Shown: one piece after another, positions 6,669 through 47,099 of the stretch
Layout: every line of letters begins with the position of its first letter
How positions within the stretch are numbered: the stretch's first letter is position 1
IMG/VR virus record: IMGVR_UViG_3300013005_000022
Location: 1 to 54,442 of that record
Length of the DNA stretch: 54,442 bases
Direction: 5' to 3' (one strand)
Source: a virus
Made by a program: the position numbers and the translations under genes
The notes under the pieces: model-generated
What the model saw: only the letters and a program-made list of their open reading frames with translations
Told to the model about the DNA's origin: nothing
Databases searched by the model: none

Positions 6669-6971
6669 ATGGAAATACCTAATTTTGAAAATTTTATCAA
6701 CGAAGGAAAAGTTACCATCAATAAAATGAATTTCACCATACATGTATTCAACGATACTAAAGGGTTATCTGTTCAATTTATTCCGGATAGTAAAACTCTA
6801 GATAAATTTTCAAAAAATGAAATGGTTGAATCTATTAAAACAAAACTAACCTCAGCAATGCCTAAATTTGCGGATTCTCTATATTTTGCAATAGATAATT
6901 CAGCTGCTGGTTTAAGTTTCCGTGTTGATACATTTGAATTAAGTGAAATAATTACAAAAGCTATTAAATAA
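6669..6971 (+). CDS. Small protein with capsid-targeting-type N-terminus
   Basis: 100 residues of unknown function. The N-terminus is MEIPNFENFINEGKV. The NFENFINE stretch matches the aromatic-x-x-F-hydrophobic-x-E pattern of T4 internal-protein capsid-targeting sequences, and INE fits the gp21 (L/I)xE cleavage site. The remainder is a small alpha/beta protein with no motif I recognise. It is preceded by a late-promoter-like box and its stop shares a base with the next ATG. I infer that it is packaged in the head; the sequence does not prove this. Confidence 0.6.
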   Translation: MEIPNFENFINEGKVTINKMNFTIHVFNDTKGLSVQFIPDSKTLDKFSKNEMVESIKTKLTSAMPKFADSLYFAIDNSAAGLSFRVDTFELSEIITKAIK

Positions 6972-36311: not shown

Positions 36312-37718
36312 ATGTCAAAATTACAAACCGCTTTCGAATCTGCTTCTTTGAAAGAGAGAGTTTCAACTCTACTTGAGAGCATTGATAGAAATAACACATC
36401 AAAATTTATTGCAGAGCGTATTCTTTCTAGATTTGCTACTGTAGAAGTTTCTGAAGGATCTTCAACTGCATCTGATGCTTATACTTATTTAATGGGTAAA
36501 GGTGTTGATCAGGCTAAAGCTAAAGGAGTTGCTAGTGCCTCTATCAATGAATCAACTTCAAGAGTTGCTAATCCTTACTTAATCGAAAAAGTAAACATTA
36601 TGAGAACTGCAATCAAAGAATTGTCAGCTTACTCATGGATGCCAGTTATTAACGATTACATCAAAGAATGTAATAACATACTAACTGAAAATGAATTTGC
36701 TATCTTAGTTGAATCCGTTATTTTCGATCTAGAAAACCACAGAGAATCTAAATTCTACTCAAAAGCAATCTCTAAACTTCGTGAATGTTCAAATGCTGAA
36801 AATCCAGTATTTGCAGTATCTGAAGATCTTGATTCAGAAAAATGGATTCCTCTAGTTAAACAATTAGTAGAATATGCTGAAAAATCTAAAGGATCTATCG
36901 GTGGAAGTGATAATAACTACAAAGTAAGCAAAGTTTACTCTCCGGTTATTGTTAACGAAGAAGAAAACACTTACACATTCTATTCAAATGGAAAAATGTT
37001 AACTCTTAATGGTGAAGAAATCACTGAATCGGAAGTTACACCAGATGAAAAATTCAAAAGCCTACTTAACTTAATGGAATCATCTACTATCGTTAAAAAC
37101 GGTATGAGATTCTACCCTAAAGCTGGATCTATATTAGACGTTACTTTCGAAGCAGAAGGAACTAAAATCACAGTTGATGGTAAATTAGTTGAGGCTGCTA
37201 ACTTAGAAACTCACTTACTTAAAACCGGTCTTTTCAAATTCAACGAAATCGAAAAAGTTAATGTTATTAACCGTGCAATCGCTGAAGGTGCAAATATCAA
37301 AGAAATGGATTTCGCTTACAGAGTTGAATCTAAAAAATTCAAAGGTGTTTCTACTACGGTATTCACTATTGCTGAAAATATCTTCATTCAAAAGGTTAAT
37401 CCTGCAATGAAAGTTAATGAATTCGTTAAAGCTGAAAGCGCTGAAGCTGCAGTTTCTATCGTTAAAGAATTTATGAACTATGATATCACTAATTCTTTAA
37501 CTAAATTGATCGAGGCTGAAGAAGTTGAGAAAGCTAAAATAGCTGAAGAAAATTCTAAAATTGAAAGAAAAATTCAATTCTTACAAGAGAAATTAGAAGA
37601 ACTAAATAGAATTGATAAATTATCAATTTACGATGTTGAGCATATAAATAAAGCGAAAGCTATCGTAGAGAGCGAAATTGCTACTCAAACCGAAGAGCTT
37701 ACAAAAAAAAACTCTTAA
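36312..37718 (+). CDS. Internal/structural protein, zero-frame product
   Basis: 468 residues, helical, Glu/Lys-rich, beginning MSKLQTAFESASLKERVSTL and containing ASINES (an xNE site). The middle is mixed (VYSPVIVNEEENTYTFYSN, FYPKAGSILDVTFEAEGTK), and the last 70 residues form a coiled coil (KIERKIQFLQEKLEELNRID). The frame ends just after a run of nine A. Shifting -1 there continues into a further 65 sensible codons. Position among tagged and head genes suggests a head or prohead-core protein. Function unknown. Confidence 0.6.
   Translation: MSKLQTAFESASLKERVSTLLESIDRNNTSKFIAERILSRFATVEVSEGSSTASDAYTYLMGKGVDQAKAKGVASASINESTSRVANPYLIEKVNIMRTAIKELSAYSWMPVINDYIKECNNILTENEFAILVESVIFDLENHRESKFYSKAISKLRECSNAENPVFAVSEDLDSEKWIPLVKQLVEYAEKSKGSIGGSDNNYKVSKVYSPVIVNEEENTYTFYSNGKMLTLNGEEITESEVTPDEKFKSLLNLMESSTIVKNGMRFYPKAGSILDVTFEAEGTKITVDGKLVEAANLETHLLKTGLFKFNEIEKVNVINRAIAEGANIKEMDFAYRVESKKFKGVSTTVFTIAENIFIQKVNPAMKVNEFVKAESAEAAVSIVKEFMNYDITNSLTKLIEAEEVEKAKIAEENSKIERKIQFLQEKLEELNRIDKLSIYDVEHINKAKAIVESEIATQTEELTKKNS
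37703..37712 (+). other. Possible -1 ribosomal frameshift site
   Basis: AAAAAAAAAC in the zero frame reads ACA AAA AAA AAC, offering the slippery heptamers A_AAA_AAA and A_AAA_AAC. A -1 slip enters an open frame that runs to 37906. A homopolymer length error in the assembly (true length ten A) would give the same picture. Confidence 0.55.
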
Positions 37719-37906
37719 CCGAAACGAGTGACAATTATGTTGTTGCTACTCTAGCTGAACCATTTAATGGATTGGTTAAAGGTGATTCAGTAAAGATGGA
37801 TGCTTTAGAATTTACCAAAAAGGGTGATGATGATATGATCGATATTATCTTGCCTGATGGAAGTAAATCTCAAGCGAAAAAAAGAATACTGTTCGCTAAA
37901 ATTTAA
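37709..37906 (+). CDS. Frameshifted C-terminal extension of the 36312 gene
   Basis: 65 codons in the -1 frame after the A-run, starting KLLTETSDNYVVATLAEPFN and ending KKRILFAKI, with TAA at 37904-37906. The sequence is protein-like: a compact beta domain (GLVKGDSVKMDALEF, DDMIDIILPDGSK). It has no good start of its own; its first ATG, at 37797, would leave only 36 residues. It stops three bases before gp55, as a real gene end would. The joined product would be about 531 residues. Resembles a small SH3-like cap. Confidence 0.55.
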   Translation, partial: KLLTETSDNYVVATLAEPFNGLVKGDSVKMDALEFTKKGDDDMIDIILPDGSKSQAKKRILFAKI

Positions 37907-37909
37907 GAC

Positions 37910-38266
37910 ATGGCAATATACGTAAAACCAAAAGAACTATACGAAGAAATTTGTATTTCACTAGAGCAAAAGAAATTGACGCCAAAGGCTGAAAAGATGC
38001 TCATATTAATAGCTGAAAGAGCTAATCAAAAGCTAAGATATGAAAATCCAATGGACCGAGAGGATTGCATTGCTTTTGCTCTTTTGGATTTGTTCAAATA
38101 CTGGGATCGATTCAAACCAGAGAAAACCACAAATGCATTTGCATTTTATACACAAATTGCAAAAAATGCATATGCTAAAGGATGGAATAAACTACATCCT
38201 GGTAAATACAAAGGAACATTATCGCTTGATGGCGGTATGGATCGTGAAGGTATTTACTCAATATAA
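37910..38266 (+). CDS. 55: Late transcription sigma factor (gp55-like)
   Basis: 118 residues (T4 gp55 is 185). gp55 redirects host RNA polymerase to late promoters. The region 2-like helical part matches: ERANQKLRYENPMDREDCIA, then LFKYWDRFKPEKTTNAFAFY and TQIAKNAYAKGWNK, parallel to the T4 [20 protein letters not shown] and PHAYITQACFNAF stretch. It is shorter than T4 gp55 at the C-terminus. Its recognition element may be the TATATAA/TAAATAA box repeated in this window. Confidence 0.75.
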   Translation: MAIYVKPKELYEEICISLEQKKLTPKAEKMLILIAERANQKLRYENPMDREDCIAFALLDLFKYWDRFKPEKTTNAFAFYTQIAKNAYAKGWNKLHPGKYKGTLSLDGGMDREGIYSI

Positions 38267-39625: not shown

Positions 39626-39928
39626 ATGAAAAACTTAATGTCTTTTGACGAATATGTCGTTAACGAAGCTGCTAAGAATGATGCTGCTGGTTTCAACCCA
39701 GAAAAAGAAACTACTAGCGACGAATTCAACCAAGAATTAACTCCTGGTAAAAAATACAATGTTAAAAAAGGAGAAGAAACTTCTCTTTGCATTTATCAAG
39801 GAAACACTGATGGTGTTTATGTATTCAATCCAGAAGCTAAAGAAGAAGGTGTAGTTACTGCTCCATGTGAATACACTGAAGCTGAACTTGATGCTGCTAT
39901 GAAAGCTGGTGAAATCACTGCTGCTTAA
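39626..39928 (+). CDS. Tagged protein with one PG-YQG-FN domain
   Basis: 100 residues. It begins MKNLMSFDEYVVNE, matching the capsid-targeting pattern. The rest is one copy of a small domain found twice in the next gene: ELTPGKKYNVKKGEE, SLCIYQGNTDGVYVFNPE, then TEAELDAAMKAGEITAA. The domain looks like an SH3-type beta barrel. Function unknown, but repetition across neighbouring packaged proteins suggests a useful binding module. Confidence 0.62.
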   Translation: MKNLMSFDEYVVNEAAKNDAAGFNPEKETTSDEFNQELTPGKKYNVKKGEETSLCIYQGNTDGVYVFNPEAKEEGVVTAPCEYTEAELDAAMKAGEITAA

Positions 39929-39949: not shown

Positions 39950-40522
39950 ATGAAGAATCTTAAAACATTTGCTGAATTCGTATTAGAATCTCAGGAATTT
40001 GATCCTGCTAAAACGACTGATATTGATGTTCTTTTACCTGCTATTAAATCTGCTTCAGAGCTAATGCCTGGTAAAGAATACGTTATCAATCTTGACGGTA
40101 AGACTCATGCCAATATGATGTATCAAGGTGTATCTGATGGTAATTACATCTTCAACTCTGAAGATATGAAAACCACATTAAACCTTAATACTGAACAAAT
40201 CAGTGGTGCCGTTTCAGTTGGAGGAGTTCAACAAGTAAACGAATCTAAATCTTATAAAGGAAGAGAAGTTTTCCCTAATTGGATTAATCCTAGTAGAGAT
40301 TTTGGTGCTCCAGTTAGTAAGACAAAAGATCTTAAACCTGGTGCTGAATATATCCTTTGGGAACCTGGAATGGACGTTTGGCAAGCTGAATGGATCTATC
40401 AAGGTTATACCGGTGGAAAACATATATTCAATGATTCTAATAAAGAAGCAGATCCTATGGTATTCACTCAATCTGAATTAGAAGAATACATTACAAGTGG
40501 TGACGTTATAAAGCAAAACTAA
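39950..40522 (+). CDS. Tagged protein with two PG-YQG-FN domains
   Basis: 190 residues. It begins MKNLKTFAEFVLE, a strong capsid-targeting match. Domain 1 (about 35-95): ELMPGKEYVINLDGK, MMYQGVSDGNYIFNSED. QQVNESKSYKGRE follows and contains another xNE site. Domain 2 (about 120-188): DLKPGAEYILWEPGMD, WIYQGYTGGKHIFNDSN, ELEEYITSGDVIKQ. With the preceding gene this makes three copies of the domain side by side. Function unknown. Confidence 0.62.
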   Translation: MKNLKTFAEFVLESQEFDPAKTTDIDVLLPAIKSASELMPGKEYVINLDGKTHANMMYQGVSDGNYIFNSEDMKTTLNLNTEQISGAVSVGGVQQVNESKSYKGREVFPNWINPSRDFGAPVSKTKDLKPGAEYILWEPGMDVWQAEWIYQGYTGGKHIFNDSNKEADPMVFTQSELEEYITSGDVIKQN

Positions 40523-43466: not shown

Positions 43467-45371
43467 ATGAGTCAAAAATATTTGCTCGTACTGGAAAGAT
43501 CCTCTTCTGAATTAGACATCAAAACAGAAGGTGATAATTACGTTCTAGAAGGAATCTTTACAGAGATCGGCGTTAAAAACAAAAACAATCGTATTTACGA
43601 TGAAAAAGAAGTTCTTCCTCACATAGATGAACTTTTACAAAAGGTAAAAGGGAGTAAACTTTTAGGAGAATTAGATCATCCAAAATCTTTTGAAGTTTCT
43701 TTAAAAAATGCATCACATGTTATTGAAGCATTAGATTACGACAAAAACACCAAAAAAGTAATGGGTAGAATTCGTCTACTTAATACTAGTGCTGGTAAAG
43801 AAGCAAAAGCATTAGTTGATGCTGGTATTCCTTTACATATTTCTAGTCGTGCTGCTGGTGTAGTTGAGAATAATGGTCACGTTAAAATCAAAAAAATGTT
43901 TACTTACGATTTAGTTGCAGATCCTGGATTTGCTAATGCTGAATTATCAAGAGTAAATGAAGCATTTGGATTTGAGATGGATGATACATTAGGACTTTAT
44001 GAAATACCTTATGATTCTAAGTTAGCTGAGTCTTTCGAAGATCATGATAAAATTGATGAAAACAAACAAACTCAAAACATAAACAAATCTTCAAAAATGA
44101 ATACAACGGAGAACATTTCAGTTGAAGATTTTAACGAATATACAAAAATCGTTAAAAACGAAATTGAAAACCTTAAAAAACAAATCGCTGAGAGTAACAC
44201 TGATGCTGTAACAGAGAGTAATGAATCTTTGGTTAAGTATACCGAAACTATCGCAAAAAGAGTAAATCAAATCCAAGAAAACCTAGGTTCTTTAAAAGAG
44301 AATTTCGATCACTTGGTATCACACAATGATTACATCGTAGAAAACCTTGAAAAGGTTAAAGATTACGCTGAAATGGTTGGTGAGAAATCAAATCAAGGAA
44401 TTAACTATTCAGAAAAACTTGCTGAATCAGTTGACCACTTAATTGAGTACACTAAAATGGTTGCTGAAAAAGCAGATCATGGAATCTCTTATACTGAGAG
44501 AATCGCTGAATCTCTTGATTCTTCAATCGAATATCAAAACCACGTTACCAAAGAAGTTAATGAGCGTTTTGCTTACCAAACTTACATCAACGAACAAGTT
44601 GATAACATCATTTCCCATACAGATTATATCGTTGAAGGTTGTGATTCTATTATCAAGTACACTGAGTACTTAAAAGAGAACCAATCAAGTTTAACTGGTT
44701 ATATGGACTATGTAGTTAAAGGAATTAACGAAGGAAAAGTTATTACTAACGATCCTACAGACGATAATAAATCAGAAAACGGAAACGAAGATGATTCTAA
44801 AGTAAATGAAGGTGCTGATGCTACTGCTTCTACTGCTACAACTGCTGACGAATTTGAAAAAGAAATTAACTCTAAAGTTGATGCTATTTTAGAATCCGCT
44901 AAAGCTCAAAAAGATGAAGTTAAAAAATCTAAAATGCATTTCTTTAATTTCTTAGCAGAATCAAAAAGAAACGAATTTGAAGCGTTAAATCCTGAAATGC
45001 AAGAAAAAATCGTTGGTCTTTTCGAGTCTACTAAATGGTACGGTTCAACTGATGCTAATAACATTTGGGAATCTGCTTTCGCTAAACCAGTTGCTAAAAA
45101 TGATTGGTTAGCTAATATGCCAAATCGTTATGCTGAAGCTTGGAATTCATTAAACGAATCACAAAAGAATGCTATTAAAGCTCAAGCTTCGGTAAGAGTT
45201 CTTGATACACAATATCAAATCGATTCTTTCTGGTCATCTAGAGATTTAAGAGTTACTAAAGTAGAATCTACTACTCCTGTTGCTCCAATCAACGAATCAT
45301 CTAAGTACGAAACTCCAACTGAATACATGGATACTGTAGCTGCTGAATTAAAAAGAAGATTCAAAAGATAA
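43467..45371 (+). CDS. 21: Prohead protease fused to a scaffold-like domain (gp21-gp22 fusion)
   Basis: 634 residues, three times T4 gp21 (212). Residues 1-195 are the protease: EGIFTEIGVKNKNNRIYDEK, GELDHP with catalytic H71, and HISSRAAG with Ser126/127. It should cut head proteins at (L/I)xE sites. From residue 200 a Gln/Asn/Lys-rich joint leads to Met211 (ATG 44097), then a coiled coil with twelve 14-residue repeats (255-422), an acidic linker and a helical end (TEYMDTVAAELKRRFKR). The second part sits where T4 has scaffold gp22. An internal start at 44097, in an A-rich context like true starts here, could make free scaffold, as lambda C/Nu3 does. Confidence 0.82.
   Translation: MSQKYLLVLERSSSELDIKTEGDNYVLEGIFTEIGVKNKNNRIYDEKEVLPHIDELLQKVKGSKLLGELDHPKSFEVSLKNASHVIEALDYDKNTKKVMGRIRLLNTSAGKEAKALVDAGIPLHISSRAAGVVENNGHVKIKKMFTYDLVADPGFANAELSRVNEAFGFEMDDTLGLYEIPYDSKLAESFEDHDKIDENKQTQNINKSSKMNTTENISVEDFNEYTKIVKNEIENLKKQIAESNTDAVTESNESLVKYTETIAKRVNQIQENLGSLKENFDHLVSHNDYIVENLEKVKDYAEMVGEKSNQGINYSEKLAESVDHLIEYTKMVAEKADHGISYTERIAESLDSSIEYQNHVTKEVNERFAYQTYINEQVDNIISHTDYIVEGCDSIIKYTEYLKENQSSLTGYMDYVVKGINEGKVITNDPTDDNKSENGNEDDSKVNEGADATASTATTADEFEKEINSKVDAILESAKAQKDEVKKSKMHFFNFLAESKRNEFEALNPEMQEKIVGLFESTKWYGSTDANNIWESAFAKPVAKNDWLANMPNRYAEAWNSLNESQKNAIKAQASVRVLDTQYQIDSFWSSRDLRVTKVESTTPVAPINESSKYETPTEYMDTVAAELKRRFKR
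44229..44732 (+). repeat. Twelve tandem 14-residue (42-nt) repeats in the scaffold domain
   Basis: Residues 255-422 divide without gaps into twelve units of 14, consensus x-I-x-Y-T-x-x-(I/V)-A-E-x-x-(D/N)-x. Examples: LIEYTKMVAEKADH, GISYTERIAESLDS, IISHTDYIVEGCDS. The hydrophobic spacing suits a regular coiled-coil rod. DNA repeats have diverged, so the pattern is held by selection at protein level. Confidence 0.8.
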
Positions 45372-45479: not shown

Positions 45480-47099
45480 ATGTACTTAATTAACGAAAGT
45501 GAAATTTTTTCAAAATGGGCTCCAATTATCGAGTCTAATACTGGAATCACTGAGCGTTCTAGAGTTGAGTGGATGTCAAAATATTGCCATAACCACGAAT
45601 TATATGAGAACAACTCATATGCTCAACTAGGCGCTGTGAACGGTATGGGTGCTACTCGTTTCCCTGGAAACCCTGGTACTCAAGATGCTTTTGACACTCA
45701 AACTACAGGTTCTGGTGATAAAGCTCACACATTGCTACCTCTTGCTATGCAAGTTGCAGCTCAAACAATCGGATTGGACTTAGTTCCAGTTGTGCCAATG
45801 CCTGGTCCAATGGGTGTTTTAACTTATTTGGATTTCGTATATGCTGGTGGTAAAACTGCTGGTACTGGTGCTGATGTTCCTTTGATGGTTAAATTGAACT
45901 ACGGTTCTAACACAATCCCAGGATTCACAGTAGGTGGTTCAGGTGCTTCAGGTGGTGCTACTTTCTACATGGTAGGTTCTTCTCGTCTTGACGGTATGCC
46001 AATCTTACGTGTTGCTGGTACTCTAACAGGTTCTAACACAATCGTAGATTGCTTAACTAACATCACAATCGGTGGAGCTTCTGCTGGTACTACTTCTAAC
46101 TATTCAGTTGAATTAGTTAAAGCTCTAGAAGATCACATCACTGGTTTCTCTGGTCAAGCTCTTGCTAACAACGACTACACTGGATTCGATATTAACGATC
46201 CATATAGCCGTAACGAAGGTGAAAGTACTGCAGATAACGTAATGAACTTAAGTCTATTCAACAAATCAGTTGAAGCTAAGACTTTCCAAGTTGCTGCTGC
46301 TGTTACTCGTGAGCAAGTTCAAGACTTGAAACAATTCGGTATCGATGCTGTATCTCAAGTAGAAGCAGTTCTTATCAACGAATTAACTCAATCAATCAAC
46401 AAGAACATTCTTGCTCGTATCTTCGCTCTAGGAGAAAGAAACCACGAATACGTAATCCGTACTCAAGGTCAAAACTTCTTCTTGAACTTAGGTGCTACTG
46501 CTGCTCTAGTTTCTTCAACTAGCACTAACTCTCCTGCATCTAACTTCGGTGCTTACATTCAATCAACTACTTTACGTGGTGCTACTATGGCTGCGACTGA
46601 AAACGTTAACTCTGCTTCAGAAAACTTACATACTCGTCAACGTAAAATTATGTCTAAAGTATTAGCTATCGCTAACTTAATCGCTATTAGAGGTCGTCGT
46701 GGACCAGCTACTTTCGTAGTTACTAACGGTCAAGTTTGTTCAGCTTTACAAGACGTTGCTGGATTCGTACCTGCTCCAATGGCTAACACAATTAACCAAA
46801 TGAGTGGTTCACTTTACCCAATCGGTACTTTAGCTGGTTTGGCAGTGTATAACGATCCAAACATGAACTGGTCAGATACTCGTATGTGTATCGGACGTAA
46901 AGGTGACGGTAACTCTCCAGGGTTAGTGTTCATGCCTTACTTAATGGCTGAAAGTGTTCAAACTATCGCTGAAGGTACTATGGCTCCTAAAGTTGCGGTT
47001 AAATCTCGTTACGCTTTAGTTGAAGCTGGTTTCCACCCAGAAACTATGTACTTAACTTCAGGTGTATCGTTGAACAACGCATTCGGTTCACTTGCTTAA
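45480..47099 (+). CDS. 23: Major capsid protein (gp23)
   Basis: 539 residues (T4 gp23 is 521). Builds the head lattice. The N-terminus (MYLINESEIFSKWAPIIESN) is a helical propeptide; a gp21-type site LYE lies at residues 41-43, after which the mature arm would begin NNSYAQLGAVNGMGATRFPG. The body shows AAQTIGLDLVPVVPMPGPMG, FQVAAAVTREQVQDLKQFGI, EAVLINELTQSINKNILARI and the C-terminal VKSRYALVEAGFHPETMYLT, all as in gp23. The gene uses more C-ending, cleaner codons than its neighbours, fitting high expression, and ends in a strong terminator. Confidence 0.93.
   Translation: MYLINESEIFSKWAPIIESNTGITERSRVEWMSKYCHNHELYENNSYAQLGAVNGMGATRFPGNPGTQDAFDTQTTGSGDKAHTLLPLAMQVAAQTIGLDLVPVVPMPGPMGVLTYLDFVYAGGKTAGTGADVPLMVKLNYGSNTIPGFTVGGSGASGGATFYMVGSSRLDGMPILRVAGTLTGSNTIVDCLTNITIGGASAGTTSNYSVELVKALEDHITGFSGQALANNDYTGFDINDPYSRNEGESTADNVMNLSLFNKSVEAKTFQVAAAVTREQVQDLKQFGIDAVSQVEAVLINELTQSINKNILARIFALGERNHEYVIRTQGQNFFLNLGATAALVSSTSTNSPASNFGAYIQSTTLRGATMAATENVNSASENLHTRQRKIMSKVLAIANLIAIRGRRGPATFVVTNGQVCSALQDVAGFVPAPMANTINQMSGSLYPIGTLAGLAVYNDPNMNWSDTRMCIGRKGDGNSPGLVFMPYLMAESVQTIAEGTMAPKVAVKSRYALVEAGFHPETMYLTSGVSLNNAFGSLA

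Follow-up and report, generated by a model that had tools for sequence, protein, structure and literature searches.

Introduction

The products of gene 10 in phages T7 and T3 are named 10A and 10B. Frame-extended coat proteins are described for these two phages as well as for Lactobacillus phage A2 and Listeria phages A118, A500 and PSA, and in all of them a frame transition gives a head gene two products, one short and one extended at the C-terminus (PMC5009743). A long homopolymer ahead of a zero-frame stop is also described for Thermus dnaX and Citrobacter rodentium tssM, where an added A leads into a downstream domain and two products are made in a set ratio (PMC5009743; PMC4256274). Slippage is reported to give about half of the dnaX product (PMC5009743), and in tssM an A11 tract restores the C-terminal domain in 20-25% of the products, with both forms being needed (PMC4256274). 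In addition, transcriptional slippage has been proposed for a poly-A-broken phage gene, a methyltransferase gene of Campylobacter phage CPt10 (PMC2853527).

Two other systems concern the loading of proteins into capsids. T4 has a capsid-targeting system, by which internal proteins bearing their own targeting sequence are delivered to the head and released after L/I-X-E (PMC9026906; PMC9958956). This is the cleavage motif of gp21 (PMC9026906), and cleavage after Glu is also described in a giant phage (PMC5694885). In retroviruses and totiviruses, polymerase packaging is aided by a frameshift that fuses the polymerase to capsid components, from which it is subsequently cleaved; in the Gag-Pol case, frameshifting fuses the cargo to the capsid-assembly protein and cleavage frees it (PMC5009743).

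Here, we describe a locus in the window, which is the whole stretch of 54,442 nucleotides analyzed from the record of a large T4-like phage, IMGVR_UViG_3300013005_000022. A run of nine A (A9) lies at the end of a gene whose product is called the body below, and a short extension follows in the -1 frame. A real, programmed frame transition at A9 is very probable. Our main reading, with a probability of roughly 0.6, is that slippage occurs at A9 and that the domain encoded by the extension is released as head cargo. The T7/T3-type systems extend the coat protein, whereas the gp23-type coat protein of this phage is encoded by another gene (45480-47099), and the extension here carries a protease-like site and has counterparts in other phages in separate genes whose starts are targeting-like. 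dnaX and tssM are cellular genes, and proteolytic release is not part of the cited descriptions of them. The CPt10 case is a suggestion for one phage, and the cited account does not describe the methyltransferase gene as a head gene. In common with the T4 system, a gp21-type protease and about 20 targeting-like N-termini are encoded here, but one cargo would ride on a frameshift fusion rather than on its own targeting sequence. The genes are unrelated to those of Gag-Pol, and here we infer the release, of a 60-residue domain with no assigned activity. In a limited literature search, which does not prove absence, no case was found in which programmed frameshifting is combined with a capsid-targeting sequence.

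Results

The features of the locus are listed in Table 1. In the zero frame, the letters around the slip site read ctt ACA AAA AAA AAC TCT TAA. The initial annotation had claimed a 468-residue frame that ends just after A9, and the sequence confirmed it. It had also claimed 65 codons in the -1 frame; that frame is indeed open to exactly three bases before the gp55-like ATG, but it holds 64 sense codons and the count of 65 includes the stop. The extension was said to lack a start of its own, which held in all three distinct sequences available. In the window there is no ATG, GTG or TTG in the -1 frame from the upstream stop to 37771, the earliest start codons being TTG at 37772 and ATG at 37796, both inside the domain, and the related contigs L003 and L004 likewise have none before the domain. 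The two other frames across the extension contain several stops in all three distinct sequences. The long product would have the same length under either slip mechanism.

Table 1. Positions of the features in the window
Feature	Position	Strand	Details
Body protein, 468-aa zero-frame product (short form)	36312..37718	+	ATG at 36312 to TAA at 37716-37718
A9 slippage site	37703..37711	+	A_AAA_AAA; with the next C, A_AAA_AAC; both in zero-frame phase
-1-frame extension, 64 codons and stop; long product 531 aa	37712..37906	+	CTC at 37712 to ATT at 37903, TAA at 37904-37906
Proposed prohead-protease site, Leu-Thr-Glu, cut after Glu	37715..37723	+	Glu invariant in 20/20 rows; L/I-X-E motif of T4 gp21
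Small 60-aa domain, proposed to be released	37724..37903	+	Predicted mostly strand, mean pLDDT 68 (modest confidence)
Possible downstream hairpin	37726..37751	+	Begins 13 bases past the end of A_AAA_AAC; weakly supported
gp55-like late sigma factor, syntenic anchor	37910..38266	+	phrog_234, E 7.8e-12
Separate protein, capsid-targeting-like N-terminus and one P domain	39626..39928	+	
Separate protein, capsid-targeting-like N-terminus and two P domains	39950..40522	+	
Prohead protease, Peptidase_S77, T4 gp21 type; candidate cutter	43467..45371	+	PF03420, E 7e-13, residues 25-136

Relatives were collected by an IMG/VR protein scan with the body, which gave six contigs at 90-100% identity. Exactly A9 and the same two frames were found in 6/6, and these amount to three distinct sequences only: the window (identical to L001 and L002), L003, and L004 (identical to L005 and L006). 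The distinct sequences differ by up to 12%, with the window differing from L003 at 190 and from L004 at 188 of 1595 aligned bases, and no indels occur over these 1595 bases. A pattern scan that let 7-13 bases stand in place of the A run matched 45 stretches. Six had poly-A as the filler, all of them A9 and all in contigs already known; the remaining 39 had other fillers. The plain alternative put forward at the outset was a miscounted homopolymer, the true run being ten A within a single continuous frame. In-frame fusion of the same body and domain in other phages would fit a sequencing or assembly error of this kind. However, nine A recur in contigs from several metagenomes, L001-L004 contain no further A or T run of at least eight, and in none of the nearest relatives is the domain fused, since it is either encoded by a gene apart or missing. 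Such an error is therefore extremely improbable. Another possible explanation is a phase-variable tract, at which DNA replication slippage would switch the fusion on, by ten A, in part of the population. Homopolymers mutate fast and consensus sequences hide minorities, but no ten-A variant was present among the six contigs even though the pattern allowed 7-13 bases, and a head-assembly component would be an odd target for switching. We consider phase variation improbable.

As judged by dN/dS, purifying selection acts on the extension as read in the -1 frame. Its dN/dS was 0.145 (NG86) or 0.113 (YN00) between the window and L003, and 0.162 (NG86) or 0.143 (YN00) between the window and L004, at a dS of 0.43-0.65. 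These values are near those of the body (0.05-0.13). The close pair L003-L004 gave 0.63 (NG86) for the extension, a value based on 7 differences only. Alternatively, the extension could be a decaying remnant, or ribosomes re-initiating at a non-standard start could translate it as a product of its own. In agreement with this, the zero frame alone spans the conserved body, and the domain went undetected in the examined flank of 11 of 52 distinct bodies in the survey of relatives described below. Against it, the extension frame is intact and selected at this level of synonymous divergence, and the missing start codons speak against re-initiation; both forms of the explanation are unlikely.

The long A run is itself unusual in this genome. 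The record comprises 160,448 bases at 34% GC (the window plus L052-L057), and A9 is its sole A or T run of at least nine, with five runs of eight; the scan went stretch by stretch, and no run of that length spans the joints between stretches. To obtain expected numbers, 162 ORFs of at least 100 aa were subjected to 200 synonymous shuffles that keep the protein and the codon usage. Sense A runs of at least nine were expected 12.1 times (range 6-18) and seen once, and runs of at least eight were expected 34.7 times (range 26-45) and again seen once, i.e. 35 times more rarely. The single run is the same in both classes, namely the A9 of the body gene. An A8 run at 142392 sits in an ORF of 74 aa, below the length limit of this test. 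With one run seen and 34.7 expected, long A tracts have been strongly purged from the ORFs, and one has been kept where slippage enters a coding frame. A purge of A runs of at least eight with one retained may be a general signature for programmed slippage in AT-rich genomes. Sense A runs of at least seven occurred 24 times in the ORFs compared to 101.6 under shuffling, and are thus four times rarer.

The slip could be made by the RNA polymerase or by the ribosome. In vivo, runs of nine A or T cause bacterial RNA polymerase to slip efficiently (PMC5009743), and a conserved homopolymer of about this length, the mark of transcriptional slippage, is what A9 provides. A cassette with nine A is reported to give 40% frameshifting (PMC3711429). 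The initial annotation had proposed a -1 ribosomal slip. A programmed transition is supported. A ribosomal slip is possible, with heptamers of the X_XXY_YYZ type in zero-frame phase before the zero-frame stop in all sequences, but polymerase slippage would give the same product and is at least as likely. Should ribosomal -1 frameshifting act alone, the fusion made by tandem tRNA slippage on A_AAA_AAA or A_AAA_AAC would remain uncut and form a minor variant in the head. Both heptamers are of the consensus A-rich types (PMC3711429), and extended coat proteins in T3, T7, A2, A118 and A500 are precedents (PMC5009743). The possible downstream hairpin adds one compensatory change among 40 consensus pairs, although four pairs are broken, in one sequence each, and the folding z-scores over 100 bases were -1.0, -2.7 and -2.5. 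A 13-base spacer between heptamer and hairpin is longer than usual for -1 frameshifting. Moreover, A9 suffices for polymerase slippage, and an uncut variant would leave the edge Glu and the separate targeting-like genes described below unexplained. Ribosomal frameshifting alone, with an uncut fusion, is thus possible but rather doubtful. GAAGAG, a candidate Shine-Dalgarno-like element, lies upstream of the slip site. We lean slightly toward transcriptional slippage, although the sequence by itself does not separate it from ribosomal slippage.

The body protein forms a separate family, of which 15 relatives at 25-91% identity were aligned. The AlphaFold2 model of the body (mean pLDDT 81, pTM 0.41) is mixed helix and strand with two long C-terminal helices. 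Neither the body nor the domain of the window matched PHROG or Pfam at E 0.1. Scans of the alignment members gave weak and scattered matches, the best being phrog_6204, which has no stated function (1.8e-5, 2/16 members), and DUF5776 in Pfam (0.0024, 6/19 members). PDB sequence searches with body and domain found nothing convincing, and Foldseek against the PDB gave no match with E up to 0.001 for either. VIA-align matches in the PDB reached Z 7.5 for the C-terminal helices of the body and 2.0 for the domain, and were treated as no information. BFVD gave seven viral matches at E values of 0.001 or lower, each labelled uncharacterised, and these included Tenacibaculum phage PTm1, although the first 50 kb of PTm1 held no convincing match to the body profile (best E 0.46). 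The profile did match in the very large phage records L060, L062, L063 and L064 (Prevotella phage Lak-A2), and no convincing match was obtained in L058 (phage PAU), L059 or L061. In Lak-A2 (L064, 3798-7454), the body family lies within a far longer frame of 1219 aa. The T4-type protease, a T4-type portal and the gp23 coat protein are encoded nearby, and the body is distinct from the major coat protein, as the gp23 family match belongs to that separate gene. The body is probably a head protein and the product of a head-core gene. Its start is not capsid-targeting-like.

The position of the domain was then surveyed in part of the relatives, the body search having kept the best 80 of 152. The in-frame arrangement was first seen in LR756500.1 (462 kb), where body and domain form one ORF of 617 aa. 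Of 95 loci, overlapping contigs included, 51 carry the domain in the body ORF and 31 carry it in another ORF (7 of which are the -1-shifted group of the window), and in 13 it was not found; these counts overstate independence because many contigs recur among the loci. Among the 52 distinct bodies from the same best 80 of 152 relatives, 24 have the domain in frame, 14 in a separate gene and 3 in the shifted arrangement, and 11 have none within the 1.2-4.0 kb after the body that the survey covered. A tree was made from these 52 rows, which represent 91 loci with a body; split profile hits were joined and L033, L038 and L089 were dropped as short. The shifted group forms one clade with a support of 100/100. 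It is nested in a strongly supported set of 20 rows, the others being 14 with a separate domain gene and 3 with none in the examined flank; the branching order within this set is not settled by the tree, and long branches make the deeper joins unsure. Since the nearest relatives have a separate gene or no domain, there is no sign of a recently continuous gene that broke. In L030, a tiny ORF, MKNLKTQLNESCDCTLCECKSSCNCSCCSC, replaces the domain gene between the body stop (~5857) and the gp55 start (6001). Translated from the DNA by eye, it has a short targeting-like start and then a cysteine-rich tail.

All 14 distinct separate domain genes among these best 80 of 152 relatives begin with a capsid-targeting-like start. 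We called these starts T4-type by their likeness to the T4 capsid-targeting sequence. The domain follows the start directly in 7 of these genes (MKLSTFDEWLNE or alike) and comes 18-259 residues later in the others. In the record, targeting-like starts were found in 20 of 292 six-frame ORFs compared to 2 of 1094 internal Met positions; this contrast and the 14/14 are partly circular because the pattern was written after seeing examples. The roughly 20 ORFs with such starts probably encode a large set of internal head proteins. All lie on the + strand, with examples at 6669, 6971, 11173, 35531, 38276, 39626, 39950 and 50752 of the window.

A second module, P, shows the reverse distribution. P forms the in-frame C-terminal end of the body in 14/14 rows with a separate domain gene and in 2/11 rows with no domain found, and in the clade of the window it sits on two separate targeting-like genes, the mirror image of the extension domain. 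Cargo modules seem to swap between the body and the targeting sequence. This exchange of loading routes is the strongest sign that the body, too, enters the prohead.

The edge of the extension domain was also compared. The triplet encoded directly after the slip is LTE in the window and LIE in L003 and L004, which is the exact T4 motif. The Glu at the domain edge is invariant in 20/20 aligned rows, and the partners upstream of it are unrelated, being a targeting sequence, a body linker, another protein or the frameshift junction. In L035 and L036, the aligned Glu is preceded by Asp-Ile, which is not a hydrophobic-X pair. In 38/38 contexts, the 20 residues preceding the domain included a hydrophobic-X-Glu triplet, but so did 83-89% of control 20-mers from bodies. 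The fused group L116-L145 lies outside the 20-row alignment, and its triplet is further from the domain. With triplets this common in the controls, and with L036 and L116-L145 as exceptions, the argument for cleavage rests on the position of the Glu and not on the presence of a triplet. The initial annotation had suggested minor structural variants that differ by a small beta domain. The predicted strand agrees with that fold, but the idea of a permanent variant needs revision. Given the in-frame or targeting-like separate homologues and the hydrophobic-X-Glu at the domain edge, the domain is better explained as cargo released by cleavage than as a lasting decoration.

Discussion

In the reading we prefer, slippage at A9 would make two products from one gene: the body and a fusion, the latter presumably in the minority. 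RNA polymerase would mainly add one A, giving an mRNA with ten A, and a -1 slip of the ribosome would be the other or an additional route. As a prohead-core carrier, the body would take the domain along into the prohead, and the protease of the gp21 type would then cut after Leu-Thr-Glu (Leu-Ile-Glu in relatives). A free protein of 60 aa would be left in the head and perhaps be ejected with the DNA. Slippage would in this way set the number of cargo copies per head, much like frameshifting in retroviral Gag-Pol.

The full Gag-Pol logic goes further and is offered tentatively. Here, A9 slippage would dose a cargo on a prohead-core carrier, the protease would free it, ejection would carry it into the next cell, and cargo domains would move between the carrier-fusion and targeting-sequence routes. 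If this is true, frameshifting doses head cargo rather than decorating a coat or tail protein. The results also indicate that uncultivated T4-like phages encode many probable capsid-targeted internal proteins, among which modules switch from one loading route to the other.

Two further observations concern neighboring genes. The C-terminal part of the 634-aa prohead protease ORF is long and repetitive and may be a fused scaffold. In LR756500.1, the body-gp55 pair is flanked by ORFs (L008, 6191-7426 and 9759-11372) that we take to resemble TnpB-type and homing-endonuclease-like proteins.
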